A DNA stretch of 63,059 nucleotides from the NCBI GenBank assembly GCA_030550555.1, contig JAUQPD010000029.1, positions 1 to 63,059 of the forward strand. The letters run 5' to 3'. The first letter of the stretch is position 1. Each line of letters opens with the position of its first letter. The notes under the pieces are model-generated. The model saw only the letters and a program-made list of their open reading frames with translations. It was not told where the DNA came from and ran no database searches. Position numbers and translations under genes: made by a program. Of the stretch, positions 11,424 to 25,446 are shown piece by piece. The DNA comes from Thermodesulfobacteriota bacterium (lineage in GTDB: Bacteria; Desulfobacterota; Thermodesulfobacteria; Thermodesulfobacteriales; Thermodesulfobacteriaceae).

Positions 11424-12288
11424 GATCCATAAGCCTGTATTACTTAAAGAGGTATTGGAATGGCTTCCTGCAGAGGAAGGAAAGATAATTGTGGATGGGA
11501 CCTTAGGACCAGGTGGACATACTGAGGCATTTTTAAAAAGAGGGGCAACTGTTTATGCCTTTGAGTGGAATGAGGATACTCTAATGATTGCAAGAGAGAG
11601 GTTAAAACCCTATGGAAAGAGGGTTAAAATTTTTCCTTTAAGTTTTACTCACATTAGAGAGGTCTTAGATGCAGAAGGGCTCAGGGCTGATGGAGTGCTA
11701 TTAGACCTTGGTTTATCCTCTTTTCTTCTTGAACAGTCAGGCAGAGGATTTTCTTTTCAAAGGGATGAGCCCCTTGATATGAGGATGAGTGATGAGCTAA
11801 AGTTAACAGCTTCAGATATCTTGAATCGTTTGCCTGAAAGGGAATTGGTGCGAATTTTTAAGAGAGGAGAAGTTCCACGGGCAAGGGCCTTAGCCAGGGT
11901 AATCTGTGAAAGGCGAAAGAAATGTAGAATTGAAACAACATCCGATTTAGTTCAACTCGTAAGAGACCTCTATAGACCCACTCCACCAAAAGAAAAGGAC
12001 CTATTAGCAGTAGTCTTTCAGGCAATAAGAATTGAAGTAAATCGAGAGCTTGAGAATCTGGAAACTGCTCTAAAGGAGATCCCAGAGATTCTTAAGCCTT
12101 ACGGAAGATTTGCAGTAATTTCTTTTCACTCTCTTGAAGATAGATTGGTAAAAAATGCCTTTAAATCGGATGAAAGACTCATAGTTCTTACAAAGAAACC
12201 AATTACACCATTACCTGAGGAGATTAAGTTAAATCCTCGGGCACGTAGTGCAAAAATGAGGGTGGCAGAAAGGAGGAAAGATCAATGA
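11404..12288 (+). CDS. rsmH: 16S rRNA (cytosine-1402-N4)-methyltransferase
   Basis: It methylates C1402 of 16S rRNA in the small subunit. Family motifs are HKPVLLKEVLEWL at the start, the SAM-binding DGTLGPGGHTEAFL, LLDLGLSS and RGFSF, then FHSLEDR near the end. At 294 residues the length is normal. The start is either TTG at 11404 or GTG at 11410; both lie inside mraZ, and no good Shine-Dalgarno favours either. It ends in an ATGA overlap with ftsL. Confidence 0.94.
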   Translation: MPVNETEIHKPVLLKEVLEWLPAEEGKIIVDGTLGPGGHTEAFLKRGATVYAFEWNEDTLMIARERLKPYGKRVKIFPLSFTHIREVLDAEGLRADGVLLDLGLSSFLLEQSGRGFSFQRDEPLDMRMSDELKLTASDILNRLPERELVRIFKRGEVPRARALARVICERRKKCRIETTSDLVQLVRDLYRPTPPKEKDLLAVVFQAIRIEVNRELENLETALKEIPEILKPYGRFAVISFHSLEDRLVKNAFKSDERLIVLTKKPITPLPEEIKLNPRARSAKMRVAERRKDQ

Positions 12289-12629
12289 ATGGTAAGGTAT
12301 ATACCGTAAAACCAGGAATTAATTACAAAACCTCAATTCGTAGAGAGAGGGCGGAAGAAAAAAGCTCTCTAAAGGATAGAGCGGTAGACCTTTTAGAAAC
12401 AGCTCTTCTCTTACTGCTTCTTTGTGTATTTCTTGTATTAACAATCGCTGTATCTCATAAAAGTATAATTTACTTTAAGCTGAAGATGGAAAAAAGGGCT
12501 TTAAGTCTTGAGAGGGCACAACTTGATAAGGAATTAAATCAACTCACATCAAGAGAAGTTCTCTTAGAGAAAGCAAAGGCACTCGGACTTCGTCCGCCTC
12601 AAGATAAAGAGCAGATCAGACTGAGATGA
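12285..12629 (+). CDS. ftsL: Cell division protein FtsL
   Basis: It is a 114-residue bitopic membrane protein. A basic cytoplasmic tail (about 1-35) precedes one membrane segment (LLETALLLLLLCVFLVLTIA, about 37-56) and a periplasmic coiled coil (KMEKRALSLERAQLDKELNQ). The end, AKALGLRPP, is typical of FtsL. FtsL works with FtsQ and FtsB to activate FtsW/FtsI at the septum. It has kept a normal form although those two targets are missing or degenerate in this operon. It overlaps rsmH and the next gene by four bases each. Confidence 0.82.
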   Translation: MNGKVYTVKPGINYKTSIRRERAEEKSSLKDRAVDLLETALLLLLLCVFLVLTIAVSHKSIIYFKLKMEKRALSLERAQLDKELNQLTSREVLLEKAKALGLRPPQDKEQIRLR

Positions 12630-13627
12630 TTTGTAAAAGAAACATCTGTATCTACTTAGCATTTATCATTCTCATATTTACATTTATTTTAAATATAAAA
12701 AAAGGAGGAACATCATATAATCAACCTCTTAAACGGGGATACCTTCTTGACCGAAATGGGGAACCTCTTGTAATTAACAAAGAGAAATTTCAGGCCTACT
12801 ATGTAATTAGAGGAAGATCAATTATTGGAAAAGATATACCCGAAGAAATAAGGCGTTATTTACCTTCTTACTTTGAACTACCTAAAAGGGGTCTTGTTTT
12901 AATCGCAGAGGGATTAAACTACGAAGAGCTTCAGAGATTTCAGCAAGTAGAGAATGTGATAATAAAAGGAGAGATAAAAAGAGCACCCCTTATGGAAGAA
13001 ATAAAGCCTCTTATTGGAAGTGTTTATGAAAATGAGGGAATTTCAGGATTGGAGAAGATTTTTGATTCGAAATTAAAAGCAGGAGAGAGCCAGTATCTCT
13101 CTCTTGACTTGAAGTTCAGTAAGAGGGTTAATAGTAAATTGAATAATAGTTCACCTATTGATATTAGAAATTTGGCAATATTTAAGGCAAATACTGGTGA
13201 ACTACTCGTGTTTTTGAGTAAAGAAGAGAAGAATTTTCTATTAGAGCCTATTATAATCTCTCCCAAGGAGCTAGGGCTGGAAATTAGTGATGTAACCTGG
13301 GAGATGGGTGGTCACGGAGTAAAAAATGTAGGAGCATATTTAATGATTACTCCACTTCATATAGTGAAGGGATACTTTTCTAGATATTGTGCGCAAGATC
13401 TCAATCCTACCTTGTTACTTAAGAGAAAGCCAGCATGTGAAAATGTTCAAGACAATCAGGAACCTATTTTCTTGGTCGTTCCCGACAAAAAACAGTGGTT
13501 CTTTTTCTTGTTAAAAAATGAAAAAGTATATCTCCTCACTGGTTACCTTCCTGATAGTGGAAAAGATAGTATAGATTGGGAGAAATTTAAGAAGAGTCTC
13601 ATGAACCATCCAGTAACAGCCCTATAG
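12626..13627 (+). CDS. ftsI: Degenerate FtsI-like (PBP3) protein without transpeptidase active-site motifs
   Basis: The position between ftsL and murE is that of ftsI. A membrane anchor spans about residues 7-24. The pedestal domain is recognisable: RGYLLDRNGEPL matches the class B PBP motif RGxIxDRNGxxL, and LIGSVYENEGISGLEK with LSLDLKFSKRV matches the GIxGLE...L-T-I-D region. After LAIFKANTGELLVFLS, where a transpeptidase normally continues with its SxxK serine, the domain collapses. I find no SxxK, SxN or KTG motif, yet MITPLHIVKGYF (the usual VTPLQLA segment) remains. At 333 residues it is little more than half of a normal PBP3 (about 570-650). The frame is open and tightly coupled, so it is probably made as a non-catalytic protein. 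Confidence 0.75.
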   Translation: MICKRNICIYLAFIILIFTFILNIKKGGTSYNQPLKRGYLLDRNGEPLVINKEKFQAYYVIRGRSIIGKDIPEEIRRYLPSYFELPKRGLVLIAEGLNYEELQRFQQVENVIIKGEIKRAPLMEEIKPLIGSVYENEGISGLEKIFDSKLKAGESQYLSLDLKFSKRVNSKLNNSSPIDIRNLAIFKANTGELLVFLSKEEKNFLLEPIIISPKELGLEISDVTWEMGGHGVKNVGAYLMITPLHIVKGYFSRYCAQDLNPTLLLKRKPACENVQDNQEPIFLVVPDKKQWFFFLLKNEKVYLLTGYLPDSGKDSIDWEKFKKSLMNHPVTAL

Positions 13628-13630
13628 TGT

Positions 13631-15094
13631 ATGTGGCCTAAACTTGAAGAACTTTTGAAAGGAGAAGAAATTCTTGAGGTTGAAAATTTTAGAGGCGATT
13701 TGATAGTAAAGGGGGTTACTGAAAATTCAAAGGAGGTCAGGGAGGGATTTATTTTTGTTGCTCGAAAGGGAACATTGACGCATGGTGATAGATTCATTGG
13801 AGAGGCCATTGAAAGAGGAGCAGTAGCTATCATTAGGGAGACAGAAATAGATAGATCTCTCCCTATCACTCAAATAAGAGTTGAAAATGCGCTTAAGTTT
13901 TCTTCGATATTAGCTCTAAGGGTTTATGGAAATCCCCAAGAGCGTCTCCAATTTTTGGGGGTAACTGGCACCAATGGTAAGACCTCTGTTGCCTTTTTCC
14001 TGAAGACAACTCTTGAGACTTTGGGTTTTCCAGCAGGATATATTGGAACTCTTTATTATGACCTTTCAGAAAAGATTCCCTCTCAGGAGACAACACCTTC
14101 AACTTTCAAGCTTGCACCTCTTCTTAAAAGAGCACATGAGAAGGGGCTTCGCTACGTAGTGATGGAAGTTTCATCTCATGCCCTTTCTCAGGATAGAATC
14201 TATGGACTTAAGTTTGACTTAGGAGCCTTTACCAATCTTTCAAGGGATCACTTGGACTACCATGGGACTTTTGAAAATTATTATCAGGCTAAGAAAAAGC
14301 TCTTTACTGAATATTTAAAGACTAAAGCGAGTGTGGTAGTATCTCTTGAAAGTCCTTATGGAAAGAAGCTTTTTGATGAGCTCAAGGCTTCATTTCGAGA
14401 ACTAAATGTCATTCCAGTTAATGATGGAGGAAGAGTAAAAGTTAGTATTATTGACCGCACTCCTGGTCTCAAACTTCGTATTGAAATAGAAAATCAGCAA
14501 TTTGATATTGAGACAAAGCTTTTTGGAGACTATCAAGCAAAAAATGTGGGCACACTCCTTGGCTGTCTGTTGGCTCTCAAGCTTCCTTTAAAGGATGTCA
14601 TAGATGCTCTAAGAGAACTAACTAATCCTCCAGGAAGGCTTGAACTCTGTGGAAAAAAAGGAACTGCACTTATATTTGTTGATTATGCTCATACGCCTGA
14701 TGCTTTGGAGAACGCCTTAAAAAGTATTTTAGTGTTAAAGAAGAGGAGGCTTATTGTGCTTTTTGGATGTGGAGGTGAGAGAGATCCAGGAAAAAGGCCT
14801 ATTATGGGGAAGGTTGCTCAGGAATTTGCTGATTTTATAGTCCTAACTTCGGATAATCCTCGCTCGGAGGACCCCTTAAAGATTTTAGATGAAATAGAGA
14901 AAGGACTCGATGGGGTTAAACCCTATGTGAAGATTCCTGACAGGGAGGAGGCTATCCGATTTGCTCTCAATGAGCTAAAGGATGGAGATATTCTTCTTCT
15001 GGCGGGAAAGGGACATGAGGAATATCAAGAAATTGCAGGAAGGCGTATTCCTTTCTCTGATAGAGAATTAGTTAAAAAGCTTACAAAGGGATAA
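13631..15094 (+). CDS. murE: UDP-MurNAc-L-Ala-D-Glu:meso-diaminopimelate ligase
   Basis: It adds the third residue of the peptidoglycan stem peptide in the cytoplasm. The ATP loop GVTGTNGKTS, the carbamylated-lysine region and the C-terminal SDNPRSEDP are all present. The DNPR motif is the known marker for meso-diaminopimelate rather than lysine as substrate. At 487 residues it is of normal length. It begins four bases after the FtsI-like gene. Confidence 0.95.
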   Translation: MWPKLEELLKGEEILEVENFRGDLIVKGVTENSKEVREGFIFVARKGTLTHGDRFIGEAIERGAVAIIRETEIDRSLPITQIRVENALKFSSILALRVYGNPQERLQFLGVTGTNGKTSVAFFLKTTLETLGFPAGYIGTLYYDLSEKIPSQETTPSTFKLAPLLKRAHEKGLRYVVMEVSSHALSQDRIYGLKFDLGAFTNLSRDHLDYHGTFENYYQAKKKLFTEYLKTKASVVVSLESPYGKKLFDELKASFRELNVIPVNDGGRVKVSIIDRTPGLKLRIEIENQQFDIETKLFGDYQAKNVGTLLGCLLALKLPLKDVIDALRELTNPPGRLELCGKKGTALIFVDYAHTPDALENALKSILVLKKRRLIVLFGCGGERDPGKRPIMGKVAQEFADFIVLTSDNPRSEDPLKILDEIEKGLDGVKPYVKIPDREEAIRFALNELKDGDILLLAGKGHEEYQEIAGRRIPFSDRELVKKLTKG

Positions 15095-17593: not shown

Positions 17594-18988
17594 ATGGATA
17601 TCAGAGGTAAAAGGGTTGTTGTAATTGGCTTTGGACGAAGTGGTCAGGCGGTAACTCGGCTTTTGCTTGTAAAAGGGGCAGAAGTCGTAGTTTCTGATAC
17701 CAGGAGAAGGGAGGAATTACCTCCTTCATTGGTATCTTCTATGGAGATCCAGGGGGTCACCTTTGAGACAGGTGGTCATAAACCAGAGACCATGTCAAAG
17801 GCTGATCTTGTGGTAGTGAGCCCAGGGGTACCAAGAGACGTGTATTTACCTGCTCTAAGAAATGGCATTCCTGTTATTGGAGAACTTGAACTTGCCTTTA
17901 GATTCCTCACTCTTGAAGAACGGAGAAAAGTTATTGCTATTACAGGCACCAACGGAAAAACCACAACTACCGCTATGATATCAGAAGTTCTAAAGATTGC
18001 GGGATTCAAAGTCTTTACTGGCGGTAACTATGGAATTCCTCTTTCAGAATTGATTTTATCAGGTGCAAGGGTAGATAGAATCGTGCTTGAGGTCTCAAGT
18101 TTTCAGTTGGAAACTGTGGAGACCTTTAGTCCCTGGATAGGGATTTTACTAAATATTACCCCAGACCATTTAGATCGTTACTCTTCTATTGGAGAATACG
18201 CCTATTACAAGTATAGGCTATTTGAAAGACAGGGTGAGGGAGACTACTCAATCTTACCTTATGGTGAGCCCTATTACCAAAAATTTGCAGGAATGGTGAA
18301 AGGAAGAATTCACTTTTTTAGTGGAGAGAGGGTAGAGGGAGTCTCTGCTTTTGTGGAAGGCGATCAAATTGTGCTCAACTTTATAGAAGAAGAGAAATAC
18401 TCTCTTACTTCCTTCAAACTTCTTGGCTTTCATAATAGACTAAATTTAGCTTCTGCCTTGCTTGCGGGAAGGCTTGCAGGAGCAAGTAGAGAGGCCTGTG
18501 AGAGGTTGATTTCAGAATTTGTTGGGTTTCCTCATCGTCTTGAGTATGTTGGGACCTTTGGTGGGGTTACCTTTGTAAATGACTCCAAGGCAACAAATGT
18601 AGATGCGACCTATCAGGCATTGAAGGGGCAGACAGGGCCTATAATTCTTCTTCTTGGTGGTAGACACAAGGGCGGATCCTATGAAGTTTTAAGAAAACCT
18701 ATTAGGGAGAAGGTCAAGACTCTTATTCTCTTTGGGGAGGCAAGGGAGATAATCTGGAATGAATTAGGAGGGCTTGTAGAGACCTACATTGTTGAGGATC
18801 TTCCACAGGCCTTAAGTGTCGTCTTTCAAGTAGCCTCTCCTGGAGATGTTGTGCTACTCTCACCAGCTTGTTCAAGTTTTGACCAATTTCGTGACTATCA
18901 GGAAAGGGGAGAAGTCTTTAGGGAACTAGTTTTAAAGTATGCACCTAAATATCTTGTTGAGGCAAGAAAGGAGGAGATCTTTCATTGA
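17594..18988 (+). CDS. murD: UDP-MurNAc-L-alanine:D-glutamate ligase
   Basis: It adds D-Glu to UDP-MurNAc-L-Ala. The N-terminal Rossmann GFGRSGQAV (about residues 13-21), ATP loop GTNGKTTTT, FVNDSKATNVDAT and LSPACSSFDQF are all typical. Length (464 residues) is normal. In most bacteria ftsW comes next, but here the stop overlaps the murG start by four bases (ATGA), so nothing lies between them. Confidence 0.95.
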   Translation: MDIRGKRVVVIGFGRSGQAVTRLLLVKGAEVVVSDTRRREELPPSLVSSMEIQGVTFETGGHKPETMSKADLVVVSPGVPRDVYLPALRNGIPVIGELELAFRFLTLEERRKVIAITGTNGKTTTTAMISEVLKIAGFKVFTGGNYGIPLSELILSGARVDRIVLEVSSFQLETVETFSPWIGILLNITPDHLDRYSSIGEYAYYKYRLFERQGEGDYSILPYGEPYYQKFAGMVKGRIHFFSGERVEGVSAFVEGDQIVLNFIEEEKYSLTSFKLLGFHNRLNLASALLAGRLAGASREACERLISEFVGFPHRLEYVGTFGGVTFVNDSKATNVDATYQALKGQTGPIILLLGGRHKGGSYEVLRKPIREKVKTLILFGEAREIIWNELGGLVETYIVEDLPQALSVVFQVASPGDVVLLSPACSSFDQFRDYQERGEVFRELVLKYAPKYLVEARKEEIFH

Positions 18989-20085
18989 GATGGCTTATTG
19001 TGGCAGGGGGAACAGGAGGACATATAGTTCCAGGCCTTGCCATTGCAGAAAGATTACTTGCCATGAATGAAGAGGTCTTTTTTGTTGCTGGCATGAGAGA
19101 GGTAGAGAGACATCTTTTAGGAAAAAAACCTTTTTCTGTCTATCACCTTGACGTTGAAGGATTTGTTGGTCGTCCTATCAGAGACCAAGTCCGAGCGGTA
19201 TTTAAAATGCTAAAGAGCTTAAAGAGAGCAAGAGATTTGATAAGAGAGGTCAAACCTTCGGTCGTTATTTCCGAAGGGGGTTATGTGTCGGTTCCAGTAG
19301 TAGTTGCTGGAAAGATAGAGAAGATCCCTTGCTGTCTTCACGAACAAAATGTAATTCCAGGCAAGGCAAATCAGCTATTAGGAAGATTTGTTGATAGGAT
19401 TTTTGTTAGCTTTGAAGAAACAAGTGTGTATTTTCCAGAAAGTAAGACCGTGGTATCTGGAAATCCCGTAAGAGAGGCACTACTTGAGAGCAGAAAGAGA
19501 GAGCATGAGGGAAGAGGGCTTCTTGTTCTTGGTGGAAGTCTTGGTGCAAGATTTATTAATGAGTTGCTTGTAAACATTATAGAGGCCCTATTTTCAAGAG
19601 TTCCTAAACTCTTTGTAATTCATCAGACGGGATTTGAGGACTTTGACCGGGTAAGAAAAGCCTATGAAAGGCTCAATCTATCTAAGGAGCAGAGAGAGAG
19701 GCTTAGGATATACCCTTTTATTGATGATATGGCATGGGCATATGCTCAGGCTGATCTTGTCCTTTCAAGGGCAGGAGCAACAACTATTGCAGAACTCATA
19801 GCCCTTGAAAAACCAGCAATTCTCGTTCCCTTTCCTTATGCAACACATGGGCATCAGGAGAAAAATGCTGAAGTCCTTGTTGAAGCAGGCTCTGCGATGA
19901 TGTTTAAACAGGATTCTGTTGAAAAGGAAGCCTTAGCAGAGCTTATGGCAAATCTTCTTCTCGATGGTGAGCGTTTGAAGAAGATGTCTAAAAATTATGA
20001 AAAATTGAAGAAGGGAGATCCAGCAGAGATTATTATCAATGAGACGAGAAGGTTAATGATGGAAAGGAGATGCCACCATGCTTGA
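18985..20085 (+). CDS. murG: UDP-GlcNAc:lipid I GlcNAc transferase
   Basis: It is a peripheral GT-B glycosyltransferase that turns lipid I into lipid II on the inner face of the membrane. The first glycine loop, GGTGGHIVPGLAIA, the HEQNVIPGKAN motif, GGSLGARFIN and the donor-binding SRAGATTIAEL with PFPYATHGHQEKNA are all clear. Length is 366 residues. Both ends overlap their neighbours (ATGA with murD; eight bases with murC). Confidence 0.96.
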   Translation: MRWLIVAGGTGGHIVPGLAIAERLLAMNEEVFFVAGMREVERHLLGKKPFSVYHLDVEGFVGRPIRDQVRAVFKMLKSLKRARDLIREVKPSVVISEGGYVSVPVVVAGKIEKIPCCLHEQNVIPGKANQLLGRFVDRIFVSFEETSVYFPESKTVVSGNPVREALLESRKREHEGRGLLVLGGSLGARFINELLVNIIEALFSRVPKLFVIHQTGFEDFDRVRKAYERLNLSKEQRERLRIYPFIDDMAWAYAQADLVLSRAGATTIAELIALEKPAILVPFPYATHGHQEKNAEVLVEAGSAMMFKQDSVEKEALAELMANLLLDGERLKKMSKNYEKLKKGDPAEIIINETRRLMMERRCHHA

Positions 20086-21472: not shown

Positions 21473-22388
21473 AGAGCTCGATAGATTTTTTATTGAGGAA
21501 GGCTTTGAATTTTTAAGAGATGTTCCTCTTGCACCCTACACGACTATTAAAATTGGTGGTCCAGCCAAAAGGGCCATTTTCCCAAGAAGTAAAGAGGAAT
21601 TAATTAAAACTTTAGACTTTTTGATTGAGAGGCAGATTCCTCATTACGTGATAGGTGGAGGAAGTAATCTTTTAGTTGCTGACAGTGGATTTTTTGGAGT
21701 GGTGTTAATTCTCACTAAGATGAAGGGTTTTAAAATAATTACGGAAGATGGACAAACTTTAGTAATGAGAGTACTTTCGGGGACGAAAATAAATGAGATA
21801 ATTGCAGGTGCAAGAAAACTGGGTTATGGAGGGTTTGAATTTTTGGCTGGTGTTCCTGCAACCTTAGGAGGAGCAATTAGAATGAATGCTGGAGCCTTTG
21901 GAATAACTACCTCTGCCTTTGTGAGAAAGGTAGAGATTTATGAGGGTAATGCGGTGAAAGAGATTATACCTTCAGATCATGATTGGACCTATCGTTCCTT
22001 TAAAGTTCCAGGGATTATAATATCTGCAGAGCTTGCGCTACCCAAAACTGATGAAAGGGAGATACAAAGGAGACTTAGAGATTTCTGGGAGAGGAGAAGA
22101 AGAACTCAACCAGTTGCGGAGAGAACCTTCGGATCAACCTTTAAGAATCCTCCATGTTGTTATGCAGGAGCTCTGATAGAAGAGGTTGGACTTAAAGGTT
22201 TTAGAATTGGAAATGCCAAGATCTCTGAAAAACATGCAAATTTTATTGTTAATCTTGGAGAAGCAAGGGCACAGGATGTCTTGGAGCTAATCTATCTTGC
22301 TAAGACGAAAGTTTATGAGAGGTTTCAAATTTTTCTTGAACCAGAGGTGAAGTTTTTGGGGATAGACAATGAGAGACTTTGTAATTAG
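21459..22388 (+). CDS. murB: UDP-N-acetylenolpyruvoylglucosamine reductase
   Basis: It is a FAD enzyme that reduces UDP-GlcNAc-enolpyruvate to UDP-MurNAc with NADPH. Family stretches are APYTTIKIGGPA, VIGGGSNLLVAD, GYGGFEFLAGVPATLGGAI and the catalytic-serine region TFGSTFKNP. The start is ATG at 21459 or GTG six bases upstream; both lie inside murC. Length, about 310 residues, is normal. It overlaps ftsQ at its end. Confidence 0.94.
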   Translation: MQWLKELDRFFIEEGFEFLRDVPLAPYTTIKIGGPAKRAIFPRSKEELIKTLDFLIERQIPHYVIGGGSNLLVADSGFFGVVLILTKMKGFKIITEDGQTLVMRVLSGTKINEIIAGARKLGYGGFEFLAGVPATLGGAIRMNAGAFGITTSAFVRKVEIYEGNAVKEIIPSDHDWTYRSFKVPGIIISAELALPKTDEREIQRRLRDFWERRRRTQPVAERTFGSTFKNPPCCYAGALIEEVGLKGFRIGNAKISEKHANFIVNLGEARAQDVLELIYLAKTKVYERFQIFLEPEVKFLGIDNERLCN

Positions 22389-23094
22389 AAATAAACGTAA
22401 ATTATTCGTTTTATTTTTGTTTATAGTGATTTTTATTTTAATGGTTTACTCGTTATATTTTACTGACCTTTTTGTAGTCAAAGAAGTAAAGGTAAGTGGA
22501 GGGACTAAGATCAGTAGGGATGATGTCATTAGACTAACTGGGTTGAAAGGAGGGGAGAGGCTTTTTAGGATTGATCTAAAAGAGTTGAAGAAGAGAATTG
22601 AATCTCATCCTTATGTGGAAGAAGCCTTCTTAGCAAGAAGGCCTCCATCGGTATTAGAAATAGTCATAAAGGAGAGAGAGGGCCTTGCTATTTTAGTTCT
22701 CGACAACAAGGGATATCTTGTTGATAGAAAAGGTGTCATATTGGGTAGTATCCTTCCGCAAGATTATCTCTTTTATCCTCTAATTGAGATCAAAGATGAT
22801 ACATGGAAAGATAACTTCTTTAAGTTTTTATCTTGGTTGAAAGATAACAAAAGGTATCTTCCAGTTTATGAAAATTATTCTAAAATAACCTTAGAGAGAG
22901 ATAAAATTATCTTACAGACTAAAACTCAGTTAAAGATTTATTTTCCCTTGGGGGTAGTTGAGGATATGGCACGGCTTTATCAAAATTTGGATAAAATTAT
23001 GGTTTATCTTTACGAGACAAATATGATAGAAAAGGTAGAGTTAATTAGACTTGATTATCCCCAAGGTAAGGCCTTAATTAAATTTAGGGGTTAA
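22369..23094 (+). CDS. ftsQ: Cell division protein FtsQ
   Basis: It is a bitopic divisome protein. A short basic tail precedes one membrane segment (about 12-30). The POTRA domain follows (VVKEVKVSGGTKISRDDVIR, then GERLFRIDLKELKKRIES). ARRPPSVLEIVIKER and NKGYLVDRKGVIL are family-typical. At 241 residues it is normal. FtsQ forms a complex with FtsL and FtsB; its retention with FtsL implies the regulatory arm of the septal synthase is kept. Confidence 0.9.
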   Translation: MRDFVIRNKRKLFVLFLFIVIFILMVYSLYFTDLFVVKEVKVSGGTKISRDDVIRLTGLKGGERLFRIDLKELKKRIESHPYVEEAFLARRPPSVLEIVIKEREGLAILVLDNKGYLVDRKGVILGSILPQDYLFYPLIEIKDDTWKDNFFKFLSWLKDNKRYLPVYENYSKITLERDKIILQTKTQLKIYFPLGVVEDMARLYQNLDKIMVYLYETNMIEKVELIRLDYPQGKALIKFRG

Positions 23095-23097
23095 GAG

Positions 23098-24309
23098 ATG
23101 GCTAGAGATGGTGGTATTCTTGTTGTAGATGTTGGGACAACGAAGATATGTGCCCTAATTGGAGAGGAGAGGGATGGGAAACTTTGGGTAACAGGTATGG
23201 GTGTAAGTCCCTCTCAGGGGTTAAAAAAGGGAACAGTTATTAACATAGAGGAGGCAACTAATAGTATAAAATCCGCTATAGATAAGGCTCAAGGGCAGGC
23301 TAAAGTTCAGCCTTCCCTTGTTTTTACAAGTGTTGCTGGAAGTCACATAAAGATCCACTCAGGAATGGGAGTTGTAGCCCTTAAGGAAAAGGTCGTAACC
23401 CATGAAGACATTGAGGAAGTCTTAAGTTCTGCTCAGGCAGTTGACATCTCTCAGGATAGAGTGTTACTACATGTCATTCCTCAAGAATTTGTTTTGGATC
23501 AAACTAGAGGAATAACTCAACCTCTCGGAATGACAGGGGTTCGTCTTGAGGCCCATGTGCAACTTATCACTGCCCAGCGGTCTTGTGTTCAAAATTTGCT
23601 CAAGTGTTTTGAATACCTGGAATTAGAGGTAGATGGTATTGTATTTCAAGGCCTTGCTTCTGCAGAGGCTGTGCTATCTCCAGAGGAGAAAGATCTTGGT
23701 GTTCTTCTCATTGACTTTGGGGGAGGGACAAGTGATATAGTTGTATATAGAGAGGGAGTTCTTCGGTTTGCTTCATCAATTCCCGTAGGAGGAGATCTTT
23801 TGACAAATGACCTTGCTGTGTGTCTCAAGACAAGTAAAAACGATGCAGAACGATTGAAATTGGAAGAGGGAGTGTGTCTTAGGGAGTTGGTTGAAGAAGG
23901 CGAAATTATTGAAGTGCCAGGAATAGGTAATAGACCTCCAAGAAGTATACAGAAGAAAATTCTTGCAGAGATTCTTGAAGAAAGAGTAAAGGAGTTACTT
24001 GCCCTTATAGATTCTGAAATTAAGGATATTCCGAAGACTTATTTAACAAGCGGTGTTGTGCTTACAGGTGGTTCTGCTCTCCTTCCAGGGCTTATTTACT
24101 TGTGTGATCAGATTTTAGATCTTCCTGCTAGAATAGGTTTTCCTGAGAGACTGCCTGGGCTTACAGAGGAGATCTATCATCCTCAATATGCCACTGCTGT
24201 GGGGATGCTCATTTATGCCTATCAGAACTATTATCAAGCTACCGAAAAGCCCCAGAAAAAGAGAGGTATTCTGGATATGATTAGAGATCTTTTGAAACTC
24301 AAAAAATAA
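23098..24309 (+). CDS. ftsA: Cell division protein FtsA
   Basis: It is an actin-like ATPase that tethers FtsZ to the membrane. VDVGTTKICALIGE is the phosphate-1 motif, LLIDFGGGTSDIVVY the phosphate-2 motif and VVLTGGSALLPGL the adenosine motif. The 1C subdomain lies between. The end (ILDMIRDLLKLKK) is an amphipathic helix of the kind FtsA uses to bind membrane. Length (403 residues) is normal. It starts three bases after ftsQ. Confidence 0.95.
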   Translation: MARDGGILVVDVGTTKICALIGEERDGKLWVTGMGVSPSQGLKKGTVINIEEATNSIKSAIDKAQGQAKVQPSLVFTSVAGSHIKIHSGMGVVALKEKVVTHEDIEEVLSSAQAVDISQDRVLLHVIPQEFVLDQTRGITQPLGMTGVRLEAHVQLITAQRSCVQNLLKCFEYLELEVDGIVFQGLASAEAVLSPEEKDLGVLLIDFGGGTSDIVVYREGVLRFASSIPVGGDLLTNDLAVCLKTSKNDAERLKLEEGVCLRELVEEGEIIEVPGIGNRPPRSIQKKILAEILEERVKELLALIDSEIKDIPKTYLTSGVVLTGGSALLPGLIYLCDQILDLPARIGFPERLPGLTEEIYHPQYATAVGMLIYAYQNYYQATEKPQKKRGILDMIRDLLKLKK

Positions 24310-24330: not shown

Positions 24331-25446
24331 ATGAGGCTTGCCTTCGAACTGATGGATGAGGAAAATATTAAGCTTCAGCCAAATATAAAGGTGATTGGAG
24401 TGGGAGGTGGAGGTGGGAATGCGGTAGCTCATATGATAAGAAGAGGACTTAAGGGGGTTGAATTTATTGTAGCAAATACTGACTATAAGGTCTTATCTCT
24501 AAATCCTGCACCAGTAAAAGTTCAACTTGGGAAGAAACTTACAAGAGGATTAGGAGCAGGTGGTAAGCCAGAGGTGGGAAGGAGTGCTGCTGAGGAGTCT
24601 GAGAAAGAGATTAGAGATGCTCTTAAGGATGCAGATATGGTATTTCTTGCTGCAGGGATGGGGGGAGGAACGGGAACAGGAGCAACCCCTGTAATTGCCA
24701 GCATATGTAAAGAGATGGGGATACTTACGGTTGCGGTAGTCACAAAGCCCTTTACCTTCGAAGGAAAGATTAGAATCAGACAGGCTGAGGAAGGCATTGA
24801 AGAATTGAAGAAGTATGTAGATACACTTATTACTATTCCCAATGATAAACTCATTCTCCTTGGTGCCCCACAGGAAAGGCTCTATGAGATGTTTAAAAAA
24901 GCAGACGATGTATTATATTATGCGGTAAGAGGCATATCTGATCTTATTCTTTCACCTGGATATATAAATCTTGATTTTGCAGATGTAAAGGCGGTGATGA
25001 CTGAAAGCGGAGGAGTTGCCCTTATGGGTATGGGAGAGGCTCAGGGTGAAGATAGGGCCCAGTTAGCAACCCAAATGGCTATATCAAGCCCCCTTCTTGA
25101 CGACCTATCTATTAGTGGAGCCAAGGGAATTCTTTTAAATATGAGTGTTCATCCAGAAACTTTGACCATTCAGGAAACCCAAATCATCACTAGTACTGTT
25201 ACCAAAGAACTTCATCCTGATGCCCGTGTCTATTTTGGTGTTGTCTTCGACGAAACCTTGGGAGATACCCTTAGACTTACAATAATCGCAACAGGTATTG
25301 AGAAAGAGTCTAACAAAAAGGGAGAAAAAGTTATCTCATTTAGTGAAAGGGAGAAGAGACGAGAGGAACTTAAAAGACCGAATTGGAGAGACCTTGGGGA
25401 GGATGTAATTGATATTCCTCCAATTCTCAGAAAAAGAGCTGATTAA
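24331..25446 (+). CDS. ftsZ: Cell division GTPase FtsZ
   Basis: It is a tubulin homologue that forms the Z ring. The signature GGGTGTGA is at residues 111-118; VGGGGGNAV is near 24-32 and ANTD at 48-51. The T7-loop region reads LDFADVKAVM. The conserved C-terminal peptide is DVIDIPPILRKRAD, the site for FtsA and other partners. Length is 371 residues. A GGAGG lies just before the ATG. The next two genes follow closely, so they are likely co-transcribed. Confidence 0.97.
   Translation: MRLAFELMDEENIKLQPNIKVIGVGGGGGNAVAHMIRRGLKGVEFIVANTDYKVLSLNPAPVKVQLGKKLTRGLGAGGKPEVGRSAAEESEKEIRDALKDADMVFLAAGMGGGTGTGATPVIASICKEMGILTVAVVTKPFTFEGKIRIRQAEEGIEELKKYVDTLITIPNDKLILLGAPQERLYEMFKKADDVLYYAVRGISDLILSPGYINLDFADVKAVMTESGGVALMGMGEAQGEDRAQLATQMAISSPLLDDLSISGAKGILLNMSVHPETLTIQETQIITSTVTKELHPDARVYFGVVFDETLGDTLRLTIIATGIEKESNKKGEKVISFSEREKRREELKRPNWRDLGEDVIDIPPILRKRAD

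Follow-up and report, generated by a model that had tools for sequence, protein, structure and literature searches.

Throughout the order Thermodesulfobacteriales, a group of heat-loving sulfur bacteria, the FtsI protein of the dcw cluster is conserved in a form without catalytic motifs, and its cognate SEDS partner, FtsW, is absent. In most accounts, FtsW and FtsI are the near-universal septal synthases and targets of beta-lactams. FtsW loss and FtsI inactivation have arisen together several times, with at least 3–4 changes. The best explanation, to which a probability of about 0.68 is given, is that RodA–PBP2 (perhaps with PBP1) took over septal synthesis and that FtsI was kept as a dead structural part of the divisome.

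An FtsI homologue without an active site

The window is a stretch of 63,059 nucleotides (contig JAUQPD010000029.1, assembly GCA_030550555.1), and its dcw cluster has the order mraZ-rsmH-ftsL-[pseudo-ftsI]-murE-murF-mraY-murD-murG-murC-murB-ftsQ-ftsA-ftsZ. The relevant features are:

12285..12629, + strand: ftsL-like gene, after rsmH; its stop overlaps the pseudo-ftsI start
12626..13627, + strand: pseudo-ftsI, an FtsI/PBP3 homologue of 333 residues without transpeptidase motifs (Pfam, relatives, profile, model)
12632..12697, + strand: N-terminal membrane helix, residues 3–24 (predicted model)
12731..13105, + strand: pedestal, residues 36–160, with RGYLLDR (37–43) and GISGLEK (138–144) (Pfam PBP_dimer at 36–118, invariant columns)
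13106..13624, + strand: transpeptidase remnant, residues 161–333 (alignment with intact FtsI of relatives; model)
13631..15094, + strand: murE, next in the operon
17594..20085, + strand: murD-murG junction, overlap at 18985–18988, ftsW absent
22369..23094, + strand: ftsQ, with a POTRA domain (Pfam POTRA_1, E 4.6e-14)
23098..24309, + strand: ftsA
24331..25446, + strand: ftsZ

Pseudo-ftsI shares with FtsI/PBP3 genes the position between ftsL and murE; its ATG and the stop of ftsL share bases (ATGA), and 3 bases separate its own stop from the murE start. The protein also has the single N-terminal membrane helix and the PBP dimerisation/pedestal domain of this family (Pfam PBP_dimer, E 1.2e-5), with the pedestal motifs and fold, but it differs in lacking a transpeptidase domain with SxxK, SxN and KTG, in being 333 rather than about 600 residues long, and in having no partner FtsW in the source genome or the order. 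The pedestal is its best conserved portion, and no Pfam match to a transpeptidase domain was obtained over the 333 residues. RGYLLDRNGEPL, GISGLEK and TPLHIVK (242–248, a relic of VTPLQLA) are present, the last within the transpeptidase remnant, which also holds a TGE strand (190–192). No KTG-like triplet occurs anywhere in the 333 residues, and SxxK and SxN strings occur only by chance, outside the transpeptidase region (SKLK at 148, SYN at 30). Alignment with intact FtsI from relatives in the phylum revealed two missing blocks, one of about 90 residues running from just past the SxxK region through SxN (gap at residue 223/224) and one of about 50 residues around KTG (gap at 290/292); the SxxK column is occupied by an unrelated PKEL. 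In all, roughly half of the transpeptidase domain has been lost. An earlier, sequence-only reading of the window had described this frame as a pseudo-enzyme with an anchor, GISGLEK and a VTPLQLA relic and without SxxK, SxN or KTG, and ORF analysis and motif inspection bore out each of these points. In a PDB-sequence profile search with a profile of 16 relatives, SpoVD/FtsI came top with 28 bits, and MrdA reached only 14 bits. Assignment to PBP2/MrdA was rejected, as MrdA scores far lower and a true MrdA exists separately.

The AlphaFold2 model of pseudo-FtsI, built from 6 sequences, is of medium confidence (mean pLDDT 72.8, pTM 0.65; linker 23–37 low). Its residues 31–333 align with residues 56–545 of P. 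aeruginosa PBP3 (7onx) with a Z score of 15.3, and it also aligns with the FtsI of the FtsWIQBL complexes 8bh1 and 8p1u. The match with PBP3 is end-to-end, minus the two active-site blocks, and because it extends over the whole length, the protein is predicted to be a miniaturised bPBP rather than a pedestal alone. The earlier claim that the pedestal had been kept is correct but too narrow, as the first helix and strands of the transpeptidase fold and its C-terminal half are still there too.

The cluster retains ftsL and ftsQ. Matches of the ftsL-like gene to NCBIfam FtsL_Actino (E 2.6e-9) and to ftsL_broad (E 0.0015) do not reach the cut-off, and a DivIC/FtsB-type match above the cut-off was obtained in 13/13 genomes tested, with a model that describes a short coiled coil and weakly matches archaeal control genomes too. 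The murD-murG junction, where these two genes overlap in the window, is the usual place of ftsW.

Conservation in the order and the remaining synthases

At the same place, a protein of similar length is encoded in all seven genomes of the genus, which records matched by sequence name as Caldimicrobium (family Thermodesulfobacteriaceae), as well as in two more genera, and its amino-acid motifs are conserved across three genera. Of the 33 FtsI-locus frames read across the order, none (0/33) has catalytic motifs, and no stops or frameshifts were seen. Lengths range from 320 to 522 residues: 522 in family f2, 449–474 in f3 and, within f1, 379–392 in genera g4/g5 and 320–340 in g1/g2/g6. A C-terminal PASTA domain is kept in f2, f3 and g4/g5 and absent from g1, g2 and g6; the source lineage and its sister genera have no PASTA domain at all. 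In the family-mates g4/g5, GxxGxE and much of the pedestal are gone. Pseudo-ftsI is under purifying selection: its dN/dS between close genomes (0.08–0.23) lies within the range of murE, murB and ftsQ, so neutral decay is not in progress, and the neutral pseudogene was rejected on these values. In the diverged pair G021/G015, dN/dS was 0.10 in the pedestal vs 0.24 elsewhere. Selection on this open frame overlapping its neighbour had been suspected from the sequence alone, and the ATGA overlap with ftsL and the dN/dS values agree with it; the absence of the catalytic blocks, the purifying selection and the order-wide loss together uphold the description as a pseudo-enzyme. In two draft genomes, murE lies in two frames (L084 in G006, L109 in G016), probably as a result of sequencing errors.

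The source genome, a 58-contig draft with a listed completeness of 100, encodes one SEDS protein, of the RodA type (RodA 127 bits vs FtsW 94; NCBIfam rodA 247 vs ftsW 206), with an intact aspartate motif; neither a second SEDS gene nor FtsW was found in this genome. The only high-molecular-weight transpeptidases found in it are PBP2 (MrdA type) and one class A PBP1, both with SxxK, SxN/SxD and KTG intact. A contig end truncates PBP2, and another is close to RodA; in closed relatives, the gene order is MreC/MreD-like genes (named by position and size), PBP2 and RodA. Exactly one SEDS protein, RodA, is encoded beside PBP2 in 41/41 genomes of the order, which represent 10 genera and 3 families, and FtsW in 0/41; G043 gives two SEDS matches, which fall mostly on different stretches of the protein and were taken for pieces of a single gene. 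Relatives have D-Ala-D-Ala carboxypeptidases, and weak transpeptidase matches of about 370 residues there, considered as a second PBP, were rejected because their sequences read as such carboxypeptidases. The proposal, made in the sequence-only reading, that septal crosslinking is done by another protein is imposed by this gene content, as PBP2, the motif-complete class B PBP recovered by the genome search, and the class A PBP1 are the only candidates found. That reading contained neither the FtsW loss nor the order-wide pattern nor its recurrence in other families. The mreB gene is not upstream of mreC in L124 and L127 (G013 and G001), unlike in other families (L122, L126 and others).

Recurrence in other families of the phylum

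Among 113 other genomes of the phylum, about 89 encode two or more SEDS proteins, 21 encode one and 3 none. The dcw cluster was read in 15 of these low-SEDS genomes, and ftsW is missing from it in 12 (families f57, f20, f31, f63, f17, f27 and f56). All 12 FtsI-locus proteins of these FtsW-less genomes (643 to 248 residues) are without catalytic motifs, and all nine FtsW-bearing genomes examined outside the order have intact FtsI motifs (low-SEDS G058, G132 and G105, and FtsW-bearing G038, G039, G127, G112, G055 and G062, the FtsW of G038 being deduced from a second SEDS protein near a murC match). The single SEDS gene adjoins a full PBP2 gene in 11/12 of the FtsW-less genomes. The FtsI of f20 and f17 is almost full length yet motif-less, and these sequences suggest that catalysis was lost before shrinkage, at least in those two families. 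In f27/f56, nearly all of the pedestal is lost, and a PASTA domain or likely PASTA remnant is kept; a C-terminal PASTA domain is found outside the order in f20, f63 and f27.

Several further observations concern these families. G142 (f17, L152) yielded class A PBPs but no SEDS or PBP2-type protein, with FtsZ, FtsA and FtsQ present; this genome is a draft, and its RodA-PBP2 locus may fall in an assembly gap. In its closed congener G054 (L178, G054:C1:130000-145000), RodA lies in two frames at a C run, which may be a sequencing error, with an intact PBP2 alongside. A murE ORF of about 980–1045 residues with no separate murF after it (L145, L150, L151, L152) suggests a murE-murF fusion in the FtsW-less families f57 and f17. 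Between murD and murG, f27/f56 encode a polytopic membrane protein of 261–264 residues (L148, L149, L155; a 150-residue fragment in L154) that has no Pfam family match and is possibly a degenerate FtsW.

A tree built from ten other dcw proteins requires at least 4 changes of the FtsW state, 3 of them forced by well supported branches; G036, whose contig ends before reaching the ftsW position, was scored as FtsW-bearing there and was omitted from the AU tests. A single clade of all FtsW-less genomes was rejected (p 0.00013), also when f20 (p 0.009) or both f20 and f17 (p 0.013) were left out, in analyses that used quick trees, sequences of uneven amino-acid composition and groups named after a first tree had been seen. 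One loss may be common to the order and f31, f57 and f63, and the dcw cluster may have been transferred between lineages.

Septal synthesis without FtsW and a catalytic FtsI

Septal glycan polymerisation would, on the preferred reading, have moved to the sole remaining SEDS-bPBP pair, RodA–PBP2, possibly plus the class A PBP1; the enzymatic role of FtsI would then have become dispensable, and its role as a structural divisome subunit would have been retained. We infer for pseudo-FtsI a structural role in which its membrane helix and pedestal would bind FtsL, with FtsQ and FtsB, and would thereby position or license the replacement synthase at the Z-ring. The P. aeruginosa FtsWIQBL complex shows FtsL in contact with the pedestal of FtsI and with one side of its transpeptidase domain (PMC7614612), and parts of the FtsL-facing surface (near KTG and at the extreme C-terminus) are missing in pseudo-FtsI. 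Given the pedestal losses in g4/g5 and f27/f56, FtsL binding by the pedestal is not a function retained in every lineage, and, to judge from the sequences, what FtsI was retained for may vary from one lineage to another.

There are two partial precedents. In B. subtilis, catalytically dead PBP2B (S309A) still has a separate structural role in division (PMC5656894); there, as proposed here, a structural role suffices for a division bPBP, with crosslinking from another PBP, but S309A is a laboratory mutation in a cell that has FtsW and in which PBP3 compensates, whereas the change described here is natural, fixed in an order and accompanied by FtsW loss. C. difficile divides without FtsW and FtsI, using a class A PBP instead, not RodA–PBP2 (PMC10693644). 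Its divisome, like the one described here, has no canonical SEDS-bPBP pair, and the source genome likewise has neither FtsW nor a catalytic FtsI. However, the dcw enzymes of C. difficile are catalytic SpoVE and SpoVD with roles in sporulation, and its FtsQLB is dispensable in vegetative growth (PMC10693644), whereas the dcw cluster described here carries a pseudo-enzyme FtsI and has lost its SEDS gene.

The C. difficile example is the basis of the strongest alternative, which is nevertheless rather unlikely: that class A PBP1 mainly makes the septum and RodA–PBP2 only elongates, pseudo-FtsI with FtsQLB restraining or recruiting PBP1. FtsBLQ represses PBP1b in E. coli (PMC6325244), PBP1 has intact motifs in the source genome, and only class A enzymes were found in G142, a draft in which an assembly gap may hide RodA–PBP2. 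Against this, every genome of the order, reduced ones included, has RodA beside PBP2, a pair that is the natural relative of FtsW–FtsI. It is improbable that the remnant has become a neo-functionalised sensor or inhibitor that detects peptidoglycan or lipid II and controls the elongasome or PBP1 instead of serving as a divisome scaffold; the C-terminal PASTA domain persists in f2, f3, f1 g4/g5, f20, f63 and f27, including lineages without the pedestal, but its absence from the source lineage and sister genera means that PASTA sensing is not a shared function. Still less probable is a slowly eroding remnant with no role of its own, its frame kept just for ftsL-murE translational coupling. The stepwise decrease in length among lineages (643 to about 250 residues), the different parts lost in each, the tight ftsL overlap and the near contact with murE would fit such erosion, but the dN/dS values, the motifs conserved in three genera and the 33 frames of the order without stop or frameshift do not, and coupling alone would not keep RGxxxDR, GxxGxE or a fold with Z ~15 to PBP3. 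The draft state of the source genome raised the prospect of sequence missing from the assembly or of a functional FtsI or FtsW overlooked elsewhere, which its listed completeness largely rules out, together with closed genomes from the order (G001, G010, G011, G013, G015, G025 and G027) that show the same locus structure and the same absence.

The loss of ftsW from the Thermodesulfobacteria dcw cluster was already stated in a single clause in 2022 (PMC8871954), in passages that mention the missing ftsW only; FtsI inactivation, RodA–PBP2 as the sole pair and the recurrence across families are additions. In the open-licence literature, no earlier description was found of a pseudo-FtsI under conservation, or of FtsI inactivation that goes with FtsW loss in several lineages.

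The preferred reading, with RodA–PBP2 as septal synthase, has a wider and more tentative form, for which the odds fall slightly short of even: a second kind of FtsZ-based divisome of several origins, in which FtsW has been lost, RodA–PBP2 builds the septum and pseudo-FtsI couples FtsQLB to RodA–PBP2. If this were true, FtsI pseudo-enzymes would be a recurrent evolutionary state. The gene content implies that elongation and division can share a single SEDS-bPBP pair, or a class A PBP, in bacteria where FtsZ, FtsA and FtsQ are still in use. The repeated natural removal of the enzyme with part of FtsI kept sets the structural roles of this protein apart from its catalytic ones, and a lineage-by-lineage comparison of the parts kept may define the minimal FtsI needed by a divisome. 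With this recurrent, coupled change, it can be tested directly which parts of the division machine serve as scaffold and which as enzyme.
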